The notes under the pieces: model-generated
Told to the model about the DNA's origin: nothing
Databases searched by the model: none
What the model saw: the letters and a program-made list of their open reading frames with translations, nothing else
Virus record (IMG/VR): IMGVR_UViG_3300048912_000151
Coordinates: 1 to 34,184 of that record
From: a virus
Length of the DNA: 34,184 nt
Strand: one strand, 5' to 3'
Translations under genes and position numbers: made by a program
Shown here: positions 4,709-32,097 of the stretch, one piece after another
Position numbering within the stretch: the first letter of the stretch is position 1
Layout of the letters: every line of letters starts with the position of its first letter

Positions 4709-6085
4709 ATGGTGCAGAGCGTGGCCGGGATGCTGCAACGCATCCTGCGCCCGAGGGCCAAGGCGGCGCCGGTCACGCGATCAACCGGCGGCTATATTCC
4801 GCCGGAATGGCCGGTAAACTTCTGGCAGATGGGCTACGACCCGCTGCGCGTCGGTGGCGGCGCGATCGTGCATTCGTGCATCGCGGCCTACAGCCAAACC
4901 GCCGCGATGTGCCCGCCAACGCATTGGCGCTCGACCGGCGACGGCGGGCGAGAGCGGGTCACGAATTCGGCGCTGTCGCGGGTGCTGGTGAAGCCGAATA
5001 CGTATCAGTCTAGCTCGGATTTCGTCTTGAACCTCGTGGGCGCGCTCTACACCGACGGCAATGCCTACGCCTACGCGACGCGCAACAACCGCTACGAAGT
5101 CGCCGAATTGCACCTGATGGATAGCGGCTCGTCGGGCGCCTGGGTCGCCTCGAACGGCGAGGTGTTTTACACGATCGCCGGCAACCCGGTGGTCGAGCGC
5201 ATCCTCGACAAGGACGCGGCCAAGGCGGTGCCGGCGCGCGATGTGCTGCATCTGAAACTCGACGCCCGCGGCAACCCGCTGAAGGGCGAGCCGCCGCTGA
5301 CGAATGCGATGCTCGACATCGCGGCAAGCAATTCGATGGTTCGGCAGGCGCTGGACTTTGCCAACAACGCCGCGAAACCGTCCGGGGTGCTGACGACCGA
5401 CCAGCCGCTCGAAGATTGGCAGTCTCGCGAGATGCGGCAATTGTGGCGCGAGGCGACATCAGGGCCGAATGCCGGCGGGACGCCGATCCTGTCGAATGGG
5501 CTAAAATGGCAGCAGGTATCGTCGTCGTCGCGCGACGCGCAACTCGCCGAGTTGTTGCAGATCGCCGACGGGCGGATTGCCACCGCGTACCGCATCCCGC
5601 TCGCGCTCTTATCGCTGTGGGGCGCCCAGGTGCAGGCGCCCGGCGAAGATCAGATGCGGTTTTGGGTATCGTCCGCGTTTGGGTTCGCGCTCAACCACAT
5701 CGAGGACGGGATCGGCCGGTTTTTCGGCGTCAGCGGCTGGCCGCAGGAATATCTGGAGTTTGATACGCAAGCGTTGCTGCGATCGAACCAACGCGACCGG
5801 ATCGAGGCTCTGGCGCGCGGCGTGCAGGGCGGGATCTACGCGCCGAACGAAGCGCGGGCGATGGAGGATCTGCCGGCGGCCGAGGACGGCGACCAGCCAC
5901 GTGTCCAACAGCAGGTCGTGCCGCTGGACGCTTGGTCGCAGACGCCGCCGCAATCGCCGCGGCCGAATGCGCCGGCGGCACCACCGGCACCGGCGACGAC
6001 CGCGAACGAAAACGCCGCCGGGGACACCGCGGCGGCGAAGGCCGCGCTCGCGGCGATGCGGAGGCACTATGCCGGCACTCGATGA
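4709..6085 (+). CDS. Portal protein, HK97 family (Phage_portal)
   Basis: A 458-residue protein forming the dodecameric ring through which DNA enters and leaves the head and to which terminase and tail attach. Recognisable features are the N-terminal PPEWPVNFW region, the wing segment with GDGGRERVTNS and VKPNTYQSS, the central GNAYAYATRNN strand pair, and the clip/stem helices around ADGRIATAYRIPLALL. The last 60 residues are Ala/Pro-rich and look disordered. The start codon abuts the previous stop, so translation is probably coupled. Length is slightly above the usual 400-430 because of the tail. Confidence 0.9.
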   Translation: MVQSVAGMLQRILRPRAKAAPVTRSTGGYIPPEWPVNFWQMGYDPLRVGGGAIVHSCIAAYSQTAAMCPPTHWRSTGDGGRERVTNSALSRVLVKPNTYQSSSDFVLNLVGALYTDGNAYAYATRNNRYEVAELHLMDSGSSGAWVASNGEVFYTIAGNPVVERILDKDAAKAVPARDVLHLKLDARGNPLKGEPPLTNAMLDIAASNSMVRQALDFANNAAKPSGVLTTDQPLEDWQSREMRQLWREATSGPNAGGTPILSNGLKWQQVSSSSRDAQLAELLQIADGRIATAYRIPLALLSLWGAQVQAPGEDQMRFWVSSAFGFALNHIEDGIGRFFGVSGWPQEYLEFDTQALLRSNQRDRIEALARGVQGGIYAPNEARAMEDLPAAEDGDQPRVQQQVVPLDAWSQTPPQSPRPNAPAAPPAPATTANENAAGDTAAAKAALAAMRRHYAGTR

Positions 6086-6707
6086 GCTGGCCGAAGCCCT
6101 GGGCGGCGAACTCGGCGACATGGTGGCGCGCATCGAGCGCGACCTGATGCTGCGGTTTGCGGTCGAAATCGAGCGGCTGCGGGCCGAGCGCGCCGAGTTT
6201 GAGCTGCGGGTCGAGCGCGCGGTCGCCGAGCGGCTGGCTGCGGTGAAAGATGGGCCGCCAGGCCCGCCCGGAGAGAGCATTATCGGTCCGGCAGGCCCGC
6301 CCGGTGAGAGCATTGTCGGGCCACCGGGCGAGAGTATCGTCGGGCCACCCGGTCCGCCCGGTCCCGAGCCCTATGTCGGCGAGGTCTGCGGCCTGTGGGA
6401 TGCGGATCGCGAGTATCGGAAATACGACGTTGTTTGCTTTGACGGCGCCGAGTGGCGGGCCAAGCGCAATGCGCCGGGCGTCCTGCCGGGCGACGGGTGG
6501 GCGCTGGCGTCAAAGGCAGGGGAAAGAGGCAGGCGCGGGGAAATCGGCCCGCCCGGACAACGCGGATTGCCTGGGCCGGCACTGTCCATCAAAGAGTGGG
6601 TCGTAAAAGACTACCGCGCCGTGCCGGTCATGTCGGACGGCAGCGCCGGGCCGCCGTTGGATTTGCGCGCGCTGTTCGAGCTGTACCACGCCGAGGCGGC
6701 ACAATGA
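6069..6707 (+). CDS. Collagen-like virion protein with coiled coil and CBM-like module
   Basis: A 212-residue mosaic protein. Residues 1-60 are a charged coiled coil. Residues 62-100 are Gly-X-Y collagen-like repeats (GPPGPPGES units). Residues about 105-150 form a small Trp/Tyr-rich module (LWDADREYRKYDVV, DGAEWRAK, WALAS) resembling carbohydrate-binding modules of the chitin-binding type. A second short collagen stretch (GPPGQRGLPGP) precedes the C terminus. The ATG at 6069 is chosen because translation further upstream in this frame is only the Arg-rich shadow of the portal. It overlaps the portal by 17 bases and the connector by ATGA. Such proteins trimerise and may decorate the virion and bind surface glycans; this is inference from architecture. 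Confidence 0.75.
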   Translation: MPALDELAEALGGELGDMVARIERDLMLRFAVEIERLRAERAEFELRVERAVAERLAAVKDGPPGPPGESIIGPAGPPGESIVGPPGESIVGPPGPPGPEPYVGEVCGLWDADREYRKYDVVCFDGAEWRAKRNAPGVLPGDGWALASKAGERGRRGEIGPPGQRGLPGPALSIKEWVVKDYRAVPVMSDGSAGPPLDLRALFELYHAEAAQ

Positions 6708-7321
6708 GGCCGCTCTACACGACGATCGTCACACCGGCGGCCGACCGCAACCTTGTAACGCTCGACGATCTGCGCGAGCAACTGCGGGTGCGGCCGGGTG
6801 ATGTGGCGAATGATGCCTGGCTGAGCAAGGTCATTGCGCGGGCCAGCATGGCGGCCGAGCGCTACTGCAACCGGATTTTCGCGAAGCAAACCTATACCGA
6901 TATTTTTCTGGCGGGTGCCACCGGCTCCACCGGCGAGCCGCTGATCCTGTCACAGGCTCCGGTTGATCCGGCGTCGGTCGAGGTGACGTTGGACGGCGCG
7001 ATCATGACGACGGCAGATTACGCGGTGGAACCGTTGGCCGCGCATCTGTGGCGCACCGGCACGTACTGGAGCAACACCGCCGGCCTGTCCGTCACCTACG
7101 ACGCAGGCTTCTCACCGATCCCGGCGGACGTGCAGCAAGCGGTACTCGACCTATGCACGGCGGAAAATTCCGGCCGCGGACGCGATCCGATGCTGCGCGC
7201 CACCGAAAGTCCCGGCCTCGGGCGCCAGGAATATTGGGTCGGCGGCGTGCCGGGCGGCTCGCTCTTGCCGCAGGATATTGCATCGCTGCTCAACCCGTAT
7301 CGGCGGGGGCTTATCGGTTAA
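6704..7321 (+). CDS. Head-tail connector protein, gp6-like
   Basis: A 205-residue protein matching the helical head-tail adaptor family: an N-terminal VTLDDLREQLRV segment followed by helices with IARASMAAERYCNR, then a beta-rich region and a C-terminal VQQAVLDLC helix and PYRRG end. It would form the ring beneath the portal. ATG 6704 is chosen because it overlaps the previous stop as ATGA. Its own TAA stop borders the inserted RNA element downstream, so in the uninterrupted operon it would probably have overlapped the gp10-like gene. Confidence 0.8.
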   Translation: MRPLYTTIVTPAADRNLVTLDDLREQLRVRPGDVANDAWLSKVIARASMAAERYCNRIFAKQTYTDIFLAGATGSTGEPLILSQAPVDPASVEVTLDGAIMTTADYAVEPLAAHLWRTGTYWSNTAGLSVTYDAGFSPIPADVQQAVLDLCTAENSGRGRDPMLRATESPGLGRQEYWVGGVPGGSLLPQDIASLLNPYRRGLIG

Positions 7322-7719
7322 CATCTTCCCCGCCCTAAAGGGCAGGGATTTCCGTCGACAGGAGGGTGATGTTCCACCCCGGAGACTGAAGTGATCCAGG
7401 CCCCTTACTCGCAACCCTTTTCAGTGTCACCTGCCACCTTGCGGCGGAACGGGCTACGGAACCTTGGCCCAGAGCCGGGTGGCGTCATCGCCAGTAAATC
7501 CCAACCCTATCGGGCATGTTCATTTGACGGTCTAGCTTTTACGGCCAAGCCTATCTTGGCCAACCAGCAAACCAGATTTTCAAACAGCAGGCGACCACCC
7601 TACGCCTCTGCTTTGTCGGCGCAAAGCAGAGACGCTTTGGATTTGAGGCAATGTCGCCCTATCGGGCGACCCGCTATCCCTCCTCCCCCTGAAGGGGGAG
7701 GTTTCTCGCGGAGATTTCG
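7321..7719 (+). mobile_element. ORF-less HEARO/omega-RNA-like insertion element, copy A
   Basis: A 399-bp element between connector and gp10-like genes, clearly homologous over its full length to copy B at 8205-8604. Its left end has the hairpin CCCCGCCCT-aa-AGGGCAGGG and its right end CCTCCCCCT-ga-AGGGGGAGG, followed by TTTCTCGCGGAG. Boundaries are set by TTA on the left and ATGA on the right, which both copies share. The pattern of terminal hairpins, a conserved RNA between them and an ATGA right flank matches what is known of HEARO/IscB elements in the IS200/IS605-like group. No IscB or transposase ORF is present. The final GGAG supplies the Shine-Dalgarno sequence of the next gene. Confidence 0.75.
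7322..7670 (+). ncRNA. HEARO/omega-RNA-like structured RNA, copy A
   Basis: Several stems are visible: the left hairpin (7328-7347), GGCCAAG-cctat-CTTGGCC (7543-7561) preceded by the conserved GGTCTAGCTTTTAC, CTCTGCTTT / AAAGCAGAG, and TCGCCC-tatc-GGGCGA (7654-7669). Unpaired blocks such as CCCCTTACTCGCA, ACGGAACCTTGGCCC and TCAAACAGCAG are nearly identical in copy B. An omega-RNA read rightward would take its guide from the DNA just left of 7321, the end of the connector gene. Assignment to HEARO rests on recalled similarity and context, not on a covariance-model search. Confidence 0.55.
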
Positions 7720-8205
7720 ATGAACGGTGCCCGCGAACTTTTCCTTAATGCGCGACTGGACCTTAACGATACCCGACTGCGTGTGCGACTCGATGACATG
7801 CCGAACAAATTGCGCAAGCGGCTGGTGTCCACTATCGGACGGCTGACCCGCGAGTTGCTGGTCAAGGTCGAGGCGCGCGAGCCGGTGCGAACGGGGCGAC
7901 TGCGGCGGCTGACCGAAGCCTACGTGGACGATAATAAGATCAAGAACTTCGTGCGCGGGCGGGTGCGGGTGCTGCGGACGCGCGAGCACAACACCGCCGC
8001 CGCCGCCGGCGCACTCGAATATGGAAGCACCGGCCAGCAGTTCCCGGTGAGCGCCTATAGAAAACGCGGGTATGCCGTGCGCTGGTACACGCGGGTTGGC
8101 GGCATCAAGGAGATGCGGTTCATGCGCGGCCCGGCGACGATTATGCTGCCGAAGGCGCGGCGAGAGATCGAACGGGTGATAGACGAGGTTTTCGCACAAA
8201 ATTAA
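7720..8205 (+). CDS. HK97 gp10-like head-tail/tail completion protein
   Basis: A 161-residue basic protein with the HK97 gp10 pattern: an N-terminal LDDMPNKLRKRLV helix, the hallmark EPVRTGRLRR segment (about residues 55-64), an ALEYGS motif in the middle and a C-terminal amphipathic helix (REIERVIDEVF). It helps join or complete the tail. The ATG forms the ATGA at the right border of element A, and its Shine-Dalgarno (GGAG) lies inside that element. It is flanked on its other side by element B. Sequence appears intact despite insertions on both sides. Confidence 0.8.
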   Translation: MNGARELFLNARLDLNDTRLRVRLDDMPNKLRKRLVSTIGRLTRELLVKVEAREPVRTGRLRRLTEAYVDDNKIKNFVRGRVRVLRTREHNTAAAAGALEYGSTGQQFPVSAYRKRGYAVRWYTRVGGIKEMRFMRGPATIMLPKARREIERVIDEVFAQN

Positions 8206-8604
8206 CGCCTTCCCCTCCGTGAACGGAGGGGATTTCCGCTGTGGAGGTTGACGTTCCAACCCGGAGATCGAATTGCTTCAATCCCCTTACTCGCAGCCCT
8301 TTTCGACTTTCGGCCGCCTCCTTGTGGAGGGACGGACTACGGAACCTTGGCCCTCGATCCGGCGGCGTTATCGCCCAAAGTCCGGCCCGATATGGGCGTG
8401 TTCGTTTAGCGGTCTAGCTTTTACGGCCGAGCCTATCTCGGCCAACCCGCAAACCAGATTGTCAAACAGCAGACGCGCACCATACCGCGCACGTCTGAGC
8501 CAGCAAAGCGGAGACGCCTCGACTTTTAGGCATTTTCGCCCTGGCGGGCGAACCGCTATCCCTCCCTGCCGTGAACGGCAGGGTTTCTCGCGGAGGCCCT
8601 GTTG
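8205..8604 (+). mobile_element. ORF-less HEARO/omega-RNA-like insertion element, copy B
   Basis: A 400-bp element homologous to copy A, diverged by many substitutions and small indels. The left hairpin CCCCTCCGT-ga-ACGGAGGGG (8212-8231) and right hairpin CCCTGCCGT-ga-ACGGCAGGG (8564-8583) have different sequence from copy A but the same stem length and loop. The right end again reads TTTCTCGCGGAG. It lies between TTA and ATGAAC, exactly like copy A. The divergence means the two copies are not a recent duplication. No protein gene lies inside. Confidence 0.75.
8206..8552 (+). ncRNA. HEARO/omega-RNA-like structured RNA, copy B
   Basis: It shares the conserved blocks of copy A. The stem GGCCGAG-cctat-CTCGGCC (8425-8443) differs from copy A by a paired A-U to G-C change. 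The 3' stem is TCGCCC-tggc-GGGCGA (8536-8551), same arms with a different loop. Another stem changes together on both arms (GCAGACG / CGTCTG here, GGCG / CGCC in A). The predicted guide would come from the 3' end of the gp10-like gene to the left. No nuclease gene is linked. Confidence 0.55.
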
Positions 8605-9252
8605 ATGAACCGCGAGATCATCGTCGGCGCCCTGTATGCAAAACTCACGGGGCCGCCGCTGGTGGTCGCGTTCACCGCCGACACGACAACCGGAAGTGCT
8701 ACGCTCACCAATGTAAGCGACACGGCCGGGCTGATGGTCGGCATGCCGGTCGCTGGTGACGGGCTGTCGGTCGGCACCCGCATCGCCACCGTGGCCCCCG
8801 GGGTCACGCTATCATTGCCGGCGATTGCCGATCGTACCGCATCGCCGCTCTTGCAGGGCTTCCCGACGACCGGCCGGCGGCTGGCTGATCCGTCTGCCGA
8901 GCAGGATATGCCGGCGCTTTATCTGGTGGAGCTAAACGAGCTGCACGGCTATCGCGCCAGCAATGCCGCGGCGCTGATCGAGCTGAATTGCGAGGTGTGG
9001 ATCTACACCAACGCCGGCGCCGAAGCCGACGCGGTGCCGGCCGCGACGCTCAATGTGCTGATCGATGCCATCGAGGCTGCCTTGTATCCGACGCCATCAG
9101 GCTTTCGCCAAAACCTCGGCGTGTCGGGTGTCCATTACTGCCGCATCGAAGGTGAAGTTCAGAAAGACCCAGGACACGCCGGCCAGCTCGCGATGGCGGT
9201 TGTCCCGATCAAGATCGTGGTCGGACAAAGCGCCGACACCCAATTGCGTTAA
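8605..9252 (+). CDS. Tail terminator/completion-like protein with inserted beta domain
   Basis: A 215-residue protein. The outer parts (residues 1-22 and about 80-215) look like the tail-terminator/gpU-like group: short N-terminal helix, a central ALIELNCEVWIY strand, a long helix with LNVLIDAIEAALYP, and a final AMAVVPIKIVV strand. Residues about 24-72 are an inserted module (TTTGSATLTNVSD, GMPVAGDGLSVGTRI) of a kind seen in many phage tail proteins. ATG 8605 is preferred over TTG 8602, because the TTG belongs to the inserted element. The Shine-Dalgarno GGAG comes from element B. Confidence 0.6.
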   Translation: MNREIIVGALYAKLTGPPLVVAFTADTTTGSATLTNVSDTAGLMVGMPVAGDGLSVGTRIATVAPGVTLSLPAIADRTASPLLQGFPTTGRRLADPSAEQDMPALYLVELNELHGYRASNAAALIELNCEVWIYTNAGAEADAVPAATLNVLIDAIEAALYPTPSGFRQNLGVSGVHYCRIEGEVQKDPGHAGQLAMAVVPIKIVVGQSADTQLR

Positions 9253-28886: not shown

Positions 28887-29612
28887 ATGCGTAATACAAT
28901 TGGACTTGGTGCCGTTGCCGGCCTCGCCGCGCTTATTTCTACGGCGCCGGCGCGCGCCGAGCTGATCGTGTCCTACAATGTCGGAGGCACGACGGCGACG
29001 TGCGTTGACAACAACCCCGCCTGCGATACCAATAGCACAATCGGCGTCTTGCAACTTGCCGATCAGACCATCAACGGCGTCTCCGTCAATGGCCAGATCA
29101 GCGCCTCGACCAAGGGCGGCGACAACACGATCACGACATCCAGCTTGAGCGTTATCAACAATAACACCACGCCGGTTGACATCACCTTTACCGTTGGCGA
29201 CACCGATTTCCTTGGCCCGATCAATCAGTTTTTTGTGTCGGGGAGCGGGACGTTTAACGGCGCGGTTACGGGTTCAACTGTAACCTATCAGTGGCTTAAC
29301 GACCCGGCAAATGCACAAGGCGCGCAGACTTTTGACGATCTGCCGGGAAATGTCCTCGACACCTTCACCGCGACGCAGACCCTCGCCCGTTCGCAGAGCT
29401 TCGCGTTTGACGACAGCGGCGCGACAACAGACGGCGCGCTGTTCAGCATGACCCTCACCGCCTCGGGGACATTACAACCCGGCGCGTCGCTCTTGAGCCG
29501 TGGCGAGTCGGAAATCAAGCCGCAACTTGTCGTCCCCGAGCCGGCCTCGCTGGCGCTGTTGGGCACGGCGCTCTTCGGGTTTGGCATCGTCCGGCGGCGG
29601 CGCGGCGTTTGA
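28887..29612 (+). CDS. Secreted PEP-CTERM sorting-signal protein
   Basis: A 241-residue exported protein with AGGAG seven bases before its ATG. Residues 1-24 form a signal peptide ending APARA. The body is a Thr/Asn/Gly-rich beta domain with two Cys (TATCVDNNPACDTN). The C terminus has the full PEP-CTERM signal: VPEPASLALLGTALFG, the rest of the hydrophobic segment, and a basic RRRRG end, which host exosortase would recognise and process. Such genes are unusual in phages; this one lies between nuclease and replication genes, like a moron. It would alter the lysogen's surface or exopolysaccharide layer; this is inference. Confidence 0.85.
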   Translation: MRNTIGLGAVAGLAALISTAPARAELIVSYNVGGTTATCVDNNPACDTNSTIGVLQLADQTINGVSVNGQISASTKGGDNTITTSSLSVINNNTTPVDITFTVGDTDFLGPINQFFVSGSGTFNGAVTGSTVTYQWLNDPANAQGAQTFDDLPGNVLDTFTATQTLARSQSFAFDDSGATTDGALFSMTLTASGTLQPGASLLSRGESEIKPQLVVPEPASLALLGTALFGFGIVRRRRGV

Positions 29613-30289: not shown

Positions 30290-31144
30290 ATGACCAAAAT
30301 CCACCACATTCCGTTCCGCTTTGACGAATGGCTGGCCGGCACGGTGGCGCTCGATGCGGTAGATGTCGGGGTCTACATCCAGGCCATAGCGCTGATCTAC
30401 AGCCACGGCGGCGAGGTCGAGAGGGAGGAGCTGAAGCGGGTCGTTCGCTGCCACGGGACGGCATTTAAGGCGTCGCTCGGGCGGCTTCTCGCGCTCGGTA
30501 AATTGGTCGAGAACGGTACGAAATTGACCTCTAAACGGTGCCTAAACGAGTTGGAAACGGCTCGAAAACGAGTCGAAAACCTCTGTTACAATGGCGCTAA
30601 AGGGGGTCGTCCTCCTAAGAAAATCAATGAGATAGCAAAACCAGATGGTTTCTACGCGCGCGCGAAAGGGAACCAGAACCAAATAAAAGAAGATTCTAAG
30701 AATCTTCTAGGGGAGGATCTTGGTCGCTGCGCTCCCTCGGAGGTGCCGGCCCCGACCGTTCCCGAGCCGGCGGAGACGCCGCCGCCCCGCCCCGAGGACC
30801 CGGACCCGCCCATCACCGCCGAGGACCGCGCCTACATGGCGCAGCGGCTGGACGAGCTTATCGCGCAGATGACGGGGGAGGCGCCCCGCGCCCCGGCGAT
30901 CCGCGATCCGGTGGCCTACGAACGCGCCCGGACGAAGAGCAAGCGCGACAACTGGCTGGACCTCAACCACGCCTTCGCCTCGGAGCACTTCGACGGCCAA
31001 GCGCGCTGGGATGCTTGGGAGGCGATCGACATCGCACGCCGAGCCGGGTCGCGGGAGGCGACGCCTGCGCACGTCAGCAAGCTCCTCGAAAGCCTCAACG
31101 ATGCCCGCTTGGCCGCCGCCGGAGCCGAAAGGGTCGCCGCATGA
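30290..31144 (+). CDS. DUF1376-like replication protein
   Basis: A 284-residue protein. The N-terminal 110 residues match the DUF1376 pattern of phage replication proteins: IPFRFDEWLAGTVALDAVDV, IQAIALIYSHGG, SLGRLLALGKLVENG and the following KRVENLCYNGAKGGRPPK. The middle is a Pro-rich linker and the C-terminal third is helical (RDNWLDLNHAFASEHFD). Start ATG 30290 follows a ribosome site GGAGAGGAG; upstream translation would run through the hairpin locus. It probably acts in replication initiation or helicase loading. It overlaps the KilA-N gene by ATGA. Confidence 0.7.
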   Translation: MTKIHHIPFRFDEWLAGTVALDAVDVGVYIQAIALIYSHGGEVEREELKRVVRCHGTAFKASLGRLLALGKLVENGTKLTSKRCLNELETARKRVENLCYNGAKGGRPPKKINEIAKPDGFYARAKGNQNQIKEDSKNLLGEDLGRCAPSEVPAPTVPEPAETPPPRPEDPDPPITAEDRAYMAQRLDELIAQMTGEAPRAPAIRDPVAYERARTKSKRDNWLDLNHAFASEHFDGQARWDAWEAIDIARRAGSREATPAHVSKLLESLNDARLAAAGAERVAA

Positions 31145-32097
31145 ACCAGGTTCCTGCTTTGAGCGCCGATGTCATGCACGATGTTGCCGGCATTCGGATC
31201 GGTCAGCGCGCCTCGGACGGCTATTTTGACGCGACCGCTATGTGCCGGGCTCACGGCAAGCAATTCAACGACTATCGAAGAATCCAGCAAACCGCCGAGT
31301 TTCTGGATGCGCTGAGTTCAAAAACGGGAATTCCCGTTTTTGACTTGGTTCAGTCAATTCAGGGGCCACACGGCGGGACTTGGGTGCATCACCGCGTCGC
31401 TATCAACTTGGCGCAATGGTGCTCCCCTCAATTCGCTGTGGACGTCACGGAATGGGTGGAGAACTGGCTGACGTCAGGAAAGGCGAGACCTTCCGCTGAC
31501 TGCCATTTGATAAGCCAGTTTATTCGTGAGCTTGGGCCATACCACCAAGCCGGCATCCGCGAGGGGCTGCGGCTCGGCATGGGGGTCGTGCTTCCGAAAG
31601 TCGAACAGATCGACCACAAGTCGGACACAGCACTAAATCTGGCAACCCAGGCGTTTGAAGTGTCCCGCAGTTATGGCGGCAGGATAGAAGCACTGGAAAG
31701 AGAGAAGGAGAAAAAGAACAAGAGAAAGAATCTTAAACCGTACGACAAATATTTAATGCGGCTGACAGTTGCCCGCCGGTTCAATGGCTACTGTCCGGTT
31801 AGAGGGCCATGCTGTCTCGGGCAGATCGTCGATGCCGACGGCGAGATGTTGTACGACGATGATGAACAACCGCTCGCAGAATACGATCATCATTATCACG
31901 TAGGAAATCCTGACATTCGGCAATCCCTTATCGCGTGCCGTAATTGTCATGCGGATAGAACGGCGCAACGTAGGGATGATCCGCGGCATGTAATCCAATC
32001 CGAATTCGAGGCCTTTCAAAAGCAGCTCGAAATCGTGATGCGGGAAGAACAAACCCCGCTGTTCGCCGGCACAAACATCACAGTGTTTCGCCGATGA
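31141..32097 (+). CDS. KilA-N domain protein with C-terminal HNH-like nuclease
   Basis: A 318-residue fusion. Residues about 15-112 are a KilA-N DNA-binding domain (DGYFDATAMCRAHGKQFNDY, HHRVAINLAQWCSPQFAVDV). Residues about 120-200 are helical with a highly charged coil (EREKEKKNKRKNLK). Residues about 205-280 look like an HNH/zinc-finger nuclease: CPVRGPCC, EYDHHYHVGNPD with Asp249/His250, and CRNCHADR with Cys266/Cys269. Codon use in the C-terminal part is less GC-biased, compatible with a separately acquired domain. It may be a phage regulator or a homing-like nuclease. Confidence 0.75.
   Translation: MNQVPALSADVMHDVAGIRIGQRASDGYFDATAMCRAHGKQFNDYRRIQQTAEFLDALSSKTGIPVFDLVQSIQGPHGGTWVHHRVAINLAQWCSPQFAVDVTEWVENWLTSGKARPSADCHLISQFIRELGPYHQAGIREGLRLGMGVVLPKVEQIDHKSDTALNLATQAFEVSRSYGGRIEALEREKEKKNKRKNLKPYDKYLMRLTVARRFNGYCPVRGPCCLGQIVDADGEMLYDDDEQPLAEYDHHYHVGNPDIRQSLIACRNCHADRTAQRRDDPRHVIQSEFEAFQKQLEIVMREEQTPLFAGTNITVFRR

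Follow-up and report, generated by a model that had tools for sequence, protein, structure and literature searches.

The window, i.e. the whole stretch of 34,184 nt that was analysed (IMG/VR record IMGVR_UViG_3300048912_000151), is a 34.2-kb phage record with two homologous, ORF-less elements of ~400 nt between its head genes. The elements flank a gene for a 161-aa neck/gp10-like protein (7720-8205) that has a weak PHROG match to tail completion/Neck1, and a head-tail adaptor gene is the neighbour upstream of element 1. The features of the locus are given below.

7318-7719, minus strand: element 1, complete, 402 nt; in the TnpB sense its left end lies at 7719 and its right end, TTAA, at 7318; delimited by the repeat and its alignment, by ends that match IS605-type insertion sequences and by joined flanks that restore an ATGA stop/start overlap
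8202-8604, minus strand: element 2, complete, 403 nt; delimited by the repeat and its alignment and by joining of the flanks
7318-7474, minus strand: TnpB-type omega-RNA (reRNA) scaffold of element 1; the right-end hairpin forms part of it; from covariance model R2, pair changes and placement without the right end
8202-8357, minus strand: TnpB-type omega-RNA (reRNA) scaffold of element 2; from covariance model R2
7327-7348, minus strand: right-end hairpin of element 1; matches the right end of TnpB insertion sequences (E 8.6e-6)
8211-8232, minus strand: right-end hairpin of element 2; covarying stem
7682-7701, minus strand: left-end hairpin of element 1, then GGAGGGATAGCG; same left end in autonomous tnpA+tnpB insertion sequences
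8564-8583, minus strand: left-end hairpin of element 2; a TnpB insertion sequence of Marinobacter has a left end with 95% identity across 41 nt
7470-7600, minus strand: element-specific structured middle segment of element 1; covariance model R3
8353-8482, minus strand: element-specific structured middle segment of element 2; covariance model R3
7720-7724, minus strand: target/TAM site TTCAT of element 1; ATGAA on the plus strand, at the start of the 7720-8205 gene; TCAT/TCAC flank as at the left end of autonomous insertion sequences
8605-8609, minus strand: target/TAM site TTCAT of element 2; ATGAA on the plus strand, at the start of the 8605-9252 gene
7298-7317, minus strand: predicted guide of element 1 (CCGATAAGCCCCCGCCGATA), at the end of the head-tail adaptor gene; from its position 3' of the right end, as in reRNA (PMC8612924)
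8182-8201, minus strand: predicted guide of element 2 (TTTTGTGCGAAAACCTCGTC), at the end of the neck/gp10-like gene; likewise from its position

Two homologous elements of 399 and 400 bp around the gp10-like gene had been described in the original prediction. They proved to be real, and the bounds were refined to those listed, 3 nt longer on the left since the terminal TTAA is part of the element. Elements 1 and 2 share ~77% identity overall, with blocks of 73-87%. A third copy occurs elsewhere, in the related phage L003, where it separates the terminase from the protease-capsid gene. It is 87.7% identical to element 1 and therewith closer to it than element 2, so that a local duplication of one element within the window could be ruled out. 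The terminases of the two phages are 45% identical. The elements are therefore far more alike than the phages that carry them, which argues that they move. With copies at three different sites in two phages and no transposase gene, they are dispersed in the manner of MITEs or PATEs of the IS200/IS605 type. The known sample consists of these three copies: the elements were absent from all of ~80 further relatives of the window phage, interior scans of IMG/VR for further element-bearing phages gave chance matches only, and an interior-motif scan of 84,980 genomes gave three chance matches and none with a longer initial pattern. A phage with an empty insertion site was not found.

Some genes in the vicinity were also recorded. 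The head operon of L003 contains a gene (5798-6925, minus strand) for an HNH-type, homing-endonuclease-like protein with a weak match to the HNH region of IscB. In the window, 31015-32097 encodes a KilA-N protein that resembles BstA abortive-infection proteins (PHROG), and 28887-29612 encodes a secreted protein with a PEP-CTERM-like tail (VPEPASLALLGTALFGFGIVRRRRGV), possibly a moron gene and a clue to the host.

The previously claimed terminal hairpins are strong in both elements and their stems covary. Both ends match those of the complete tnpA+tnpB insertion sequences L197, L215 and L220 (E 1e-13 to 1e-14) and are the best conserved parts of the elements. Left ends of this family come after TCAT or TCAC (TCAT-C or TCAC-C in L197, L215 and L220), and, read on the opposite strand, ATGA or GTGA follows the insertion directly, where an open frame usually begins. 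The left flank is TTCAT at both window copies and GTCAT at the L003 copy. When the flanks are joined, a classic stop/start overlap with an in-frame TGA results in both cases, namely, LIG-TGA overlapping ATG for element 1 and QK-TGA overlapping ATG for element 2. The elements thus show the properties of the IS200/IS605 family: a hairpin close to either end, insertion 3' to a short motif and no duplication of the target. As ATGA is frequent, with 124 plus-strand sites in the window, this target together with purifying selection can account for the positions of the elements. They bring a new stop codon (in TTAA) and GGAG before the start, which may explain why the insertion is tolerated.

The claimed multi-stem RNA was confirmed as a fold that is far from chance and strand-specific. 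In comparison with shuffled sequences, the minus strands of elements 1 and 2 fold with -191.7 and -195.1 kcal/mol (z -6.9 each) and the plus strands with -160.2 and -167.0 kcal/mol (z -4.0 and -3.65). For the consensus of the three copies (alifold), energy and covariation term were -181.9 kcal/mol and 13.2 on the minus strand, versus -146.2 kcal/mol and 2.4 on the plus strand. Compensatory double changes were seen in 25 of the 127 pairs of the three-copy consensus fold, and G-U cells numbered 61 in the minus and 23 in the plus fold. The absence of an ORF holds broadly, as the substitutions show no codon-position bias, but a plus-strand frame of 110 codons (7391-7723 and 8273-8605) is open in all three copies. 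A protein-coding interior was ruled out on the same lack of bias. Given the stronger fold and covariation of the minus strand and substitutions without codon-position bias, the element RNA is most likely antisense to the head genes. A consensus promoter scan gave no promoter.

The end of the 110-codon frame (GGGFSRR) resembles a relic of the TnpA C-terminus.

The last 157 nt at the 3' end of all three copies served to build a covariance model (R2). Scanning for the right-end pattern led to 32 further viral loci; by tblastn, most of them have an adjoining gene for TnpB, an ancestor of Cas12, and many have tnpA as well. Pfam assigns the proteins of L102, L184 and L185 to TnpB. Over its full length, R2 matched most of the 32 loci (35-68 bits; E from 9e-8 down to 7e-17) as well as TnpB loci of plasmids (40-53 bits), the single-locus significance of its matches leaning on the right end. 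In L197 and L215, GUUCCGUGACCUGUUCUGC, GUUUGCGAGUGAG and CGGGGUGGAACGUCACCCUC correspond to GUUCCGUAGCCCGUUCCGC, GUUGCGAGUAAG and CGGGGUGGAACAUCACCCUC in the window elements. One hairpin has ~50-60 coding nt looped out in tnpB loci and a loop of only few bases in the elements, where a short covarying hairpin replaces the coding-derived loop. An alignment of 30 distinct sequences showed two-sided change in 36 of 48 pairs and 94.0% paired cells, versus 73.6% when shuffled and 45-52% when slid; the underlying alignments (A9 and A10) were fitted to the structure. A profile without the right end was run over 324 kb, and almost all of its top-ranked positions were still correct, lying just upstream of tnpB right ends and in the right orientation. 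Single matches of the covariance model or nhmmer were then weak (E 0.04-3), with no per-locus significance by the covariance model, and the argument rests on their collective placement. R1, the model of the commonest viral TnpB omega-RNA, matched the elements at the right end only, which points to a partner from a different TnpB clade, the one found via the right-end pattern.

The elements thus contain what is typical of a reRNA, a structured RNA of ~150 nt at the right end of an insertion sequence that is homologous to tnpB-associated RNAs, and they have no adjacent or overlapping tnpB gene. No TnpB, TnpA or IscB was detected in the window by tblastn; hence, the elements are stand-alone and not complete TnpB loci. 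Judged by their sequence, they are stand-alone TnpB omega-RNA mini-elements, PATE- or MITE-like, from which tnpB is gone and in which the coding-derived loops are trimmed. Ends, scaffold and tblastn agree here with the original prediction insofar as it saw stand-alone, omega-RNA-like elements of the IS200/IS605 type in a phage without a nuclease of its own. A permissive Rfam search gave no match to group I or group II introns, and ends and scaffold identify IS605 instead. The scaffold has been retained although tnpB was lost, which argues that it is still in use, and a nuclease would be expected to load the element RNA. The middle segment of ~130 nt is highly conserved among the copies. Relatives of it were not found: R3 matched the three copies only, and nhmmer was negative in all loci examined.

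Other tnpB-less loci were noticed in the course of the analysis. L202 and L205, both viral contigs, have an element of ~250 nt with both ends and a tnpB 3' remnant, a candidate for a stand-alone omega-RNA of a different TnpB clade. L207 and L214 have a right end and an omega-RNA hairpin but no detectable tnpB within the 2.6 kb searched and are probably truncated remnants.

With a probability of roughly 70%, each element is a non-autonomous IS605 derivative that is moved by TnpA in trans and whose RNA guides TnpB, likewise supplied in trans, to the empty site. The elements could otherwise be dead relics, IS605 remnants deleted for tnpA and tnpB like ordinary PATEs, with an omega-RNA part that was merely inherited and is inactive. 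PATEs that contain a tnpB 3' end as non-coding sequence have been described (HqIRS71; PMC3119063), the copy in L202 and L205 is also tnpB-less, and the phage has no partner nuclease. However, despite a divergence of ~23%, the copies have almost all pairs intact and show many compensatory changes, and the coding-derived loop is now a short covarying hairpin. Moreover, a relic would not gain a conserved structured middle segment. This explanation is considered unlikely.

In IS200/IS605, TnpA is known to recognise terminal hairpins, and the ends are the part of the elements that changed least. Both would suit a transposable element that acts on the DNA level only, its structure serving the recognition of single-stranded DNA by TnpA and its RNA being irrelevant. 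In that case, it would be surprising that the interior shows as much structure as the ends and that the strand preference comes from G-U pairs, which matter in RNA. It is rather improbable. Even less credit can be given to a domesticated leader that sets head-gene translation through a stop codon of its own (TTAA) and through GGAG, similar to a Shine-Dalgarno sequence, ahead of ATG. GGAG does lie at least 6 nt before ATGA in all three copies and TAA of the element is the stop codon of two upstream genes, but the ATGA target explains the position, autonomous tnpA+tnpB insertion sequences of the family occupy the same kind of site, and ~80 phage relatives do without the elements.

The proposed identity as HEARO/IscB omega-RNA was not borne out. 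The Rfam HEARO model (RF02033) did not match the elements at the gathering score or at E ≤ 10, while it scored 68.7-123.8 bits in related plasmid loci, the fold is on the other strand and the 3' half matches the TnpB omega-RNA. The homologues adjoin a different type of gene, here tnpB; homologues beside another gene type, together with a missing covariance match, were what the original prediction had itself named as evidence against it. The HEARO-positive plasmid loci, stand-alone in Allochromatium and Thiomicrorhabdus and with IscB in Cupriavidus, have the right end of the element (in the plus-strand view). This end, common to IscB loci and stand-alone HEARO elements (L006, L007, L099, L100), and the ATGA/GTGA target, which is also that of HEARO, would fit a divergent HEARO/IscB omega-RNA on the plus strand. 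Presumably, the end is common to both since TnpA acts on ends of one type in IscB and in TnpB elements. The distinguishing end is the left (plus-strand) end of the window elements, and it is of the TnpB and not of the HEARO/IscB type: it reaches 26.5-29.9 bits as a TnpB right end, whereas HEARO/IscB left ends have ≤15 bits. A HEARO RNA runs inward from the end without the target motif, here on the plus strand, but the minus strand folds and covaries far better. HEARO/IscB omega-RNAs are thus similar to the elements in the kind of right end and the ATGA-type target and different in strand, structure and nuclease (IscB instead of TnpB). The HEARO omega-RNA was ruled out by covariance model, strand and left-end type, and a divergent form of it is barely conceivable.

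Stand-alone IscB RNAs are already known. Two were observed among the plasmids, both with no annotated IscB nearby: one of 100.7 bits in an Allochromatium plasmid (L006, 4287-4525, minus strand) and one of 68.7 bits, below the Rfam gathering score, in a Thiomicrorhabdus plasmid (L007, 2482-2721, plus strand).

For the non-autonomous IS605 derivative with TnpA and TnpB in trans, the following course is proposed. The ancestor would have been an IS605-type tnpA+tnpB insertion sequence that lost both genes and kept both transposition ends, and its right end would have kept the TnpB omega-RNA scaffold as a structured non-coding RNA of the minus strand. As no recognisable TnpB or TnpA is encoded in the window, both would come from the host or another element. 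TnpA of a host insertion sequence would excise and insert the element as single-stranded DNA 3' of TCAT (ATGA on the plus strand), so that surviving copies lie directly before ATGA start codons in the phage operon. TnpB binds a reRNA of ~150 nt from the right end, and the last ~16 nt, from the flank, guide cleavage next to the TAM (PMC8612924). In the same way, RNA that runs out of an element through its right end would include 16-20 nt of the adjoining sequence, where the upstream head gene ends, and these would be the guide. Elsewhere in the window, no self-target of the two predicted guides was better than 7 mismatches in 16. Together with TnpB in trans, this RNA would target the empty site (TCAT plus guide sequence), and cleavage would occur as in donor-joint cleavage and repair or in a TnpB gene drive. 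Targeting of the empty site is proposed to favour element-bearing genomes.

The elements agree with the TnpB omega-RNA of the IS200/IS605, ISDra2 type (PMC8612924) in right-end position, orientation, ~150-nt scaffold, right-end hairpin, 3' flank as prospective guide and a TAM-like site at the left flank. They differ from it in that tnpB and the coding-derived loops are lost, a structured middle of 130 nt is added and the elements are phage-borne. With the IS605-type insertion sequences in viral contigs (L197, L215, L220, L189, L195 and others), they share both ends, the TCAT-C/TCAC-C target and the 3' scaffold; those encode TnpA and TnpB, whereas the window elements are non-coding and ~400 nt long. 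PATEs, small derivatives of IS605 that occur in haloarchaea, in some cases contain remnants of the tnpB 3' end (PMC3119063). They are similar in their near-terminal IS605-type palindromes, the lack of a transposase and, sometimes, a tnpB 3' end, and differ in that they lie in archaeal chromosomes and have core deletions; a conserved omega-RNA structure does not appear in the available part of the description. In plasmids, TnpB biases inheritance toward those bearing the insertion sequence (PMC11870625). The mechanism proposed for the elements is alike: a guide taken from the site of insertion, and cutting of copies that lack the insertion. The plasmid drive was shown for insertion sequences with tnpB, while here the guide would ride on the phage and the nuclease would come from elsewhere.

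A more far-reaching idea, offered tentatively and on the doubtful side, is that phage omega-RNAs are RNA-guided homing drives. Guide cassettes at conserved head-gene junctions would, with TnpB borrowed from the host, cut the empty-site genomes of rival phages in co-infection, and the middle segment may tune or replace part of the scaffold. If this is true, the elements would spread like homing introns with no encoded nuclease.

A targeted literature search of partial coverage found no description of stand-alone TnpB omega-RNAs in phages. Miniature IS605 derivatives are already known; what is new is a TnpB omega-RNA without its gene, compacted and covarying, in a phage head operon. The omega-RNA is separated from its nuclease gene, free of coding constraint and kept as a compact structured RNA. 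The rule for the site, directly before ATGA start codons, explains harmless entry into dense phage operons, and natural scaffolds trimmed of coding sequence were obtained. The phage seems to carry ready-made guides for a nuclease supplied by another party, and TnpB guides acting in trans as well as RNA-guided homing between phages without a self-encoded nuclease become directly testable.
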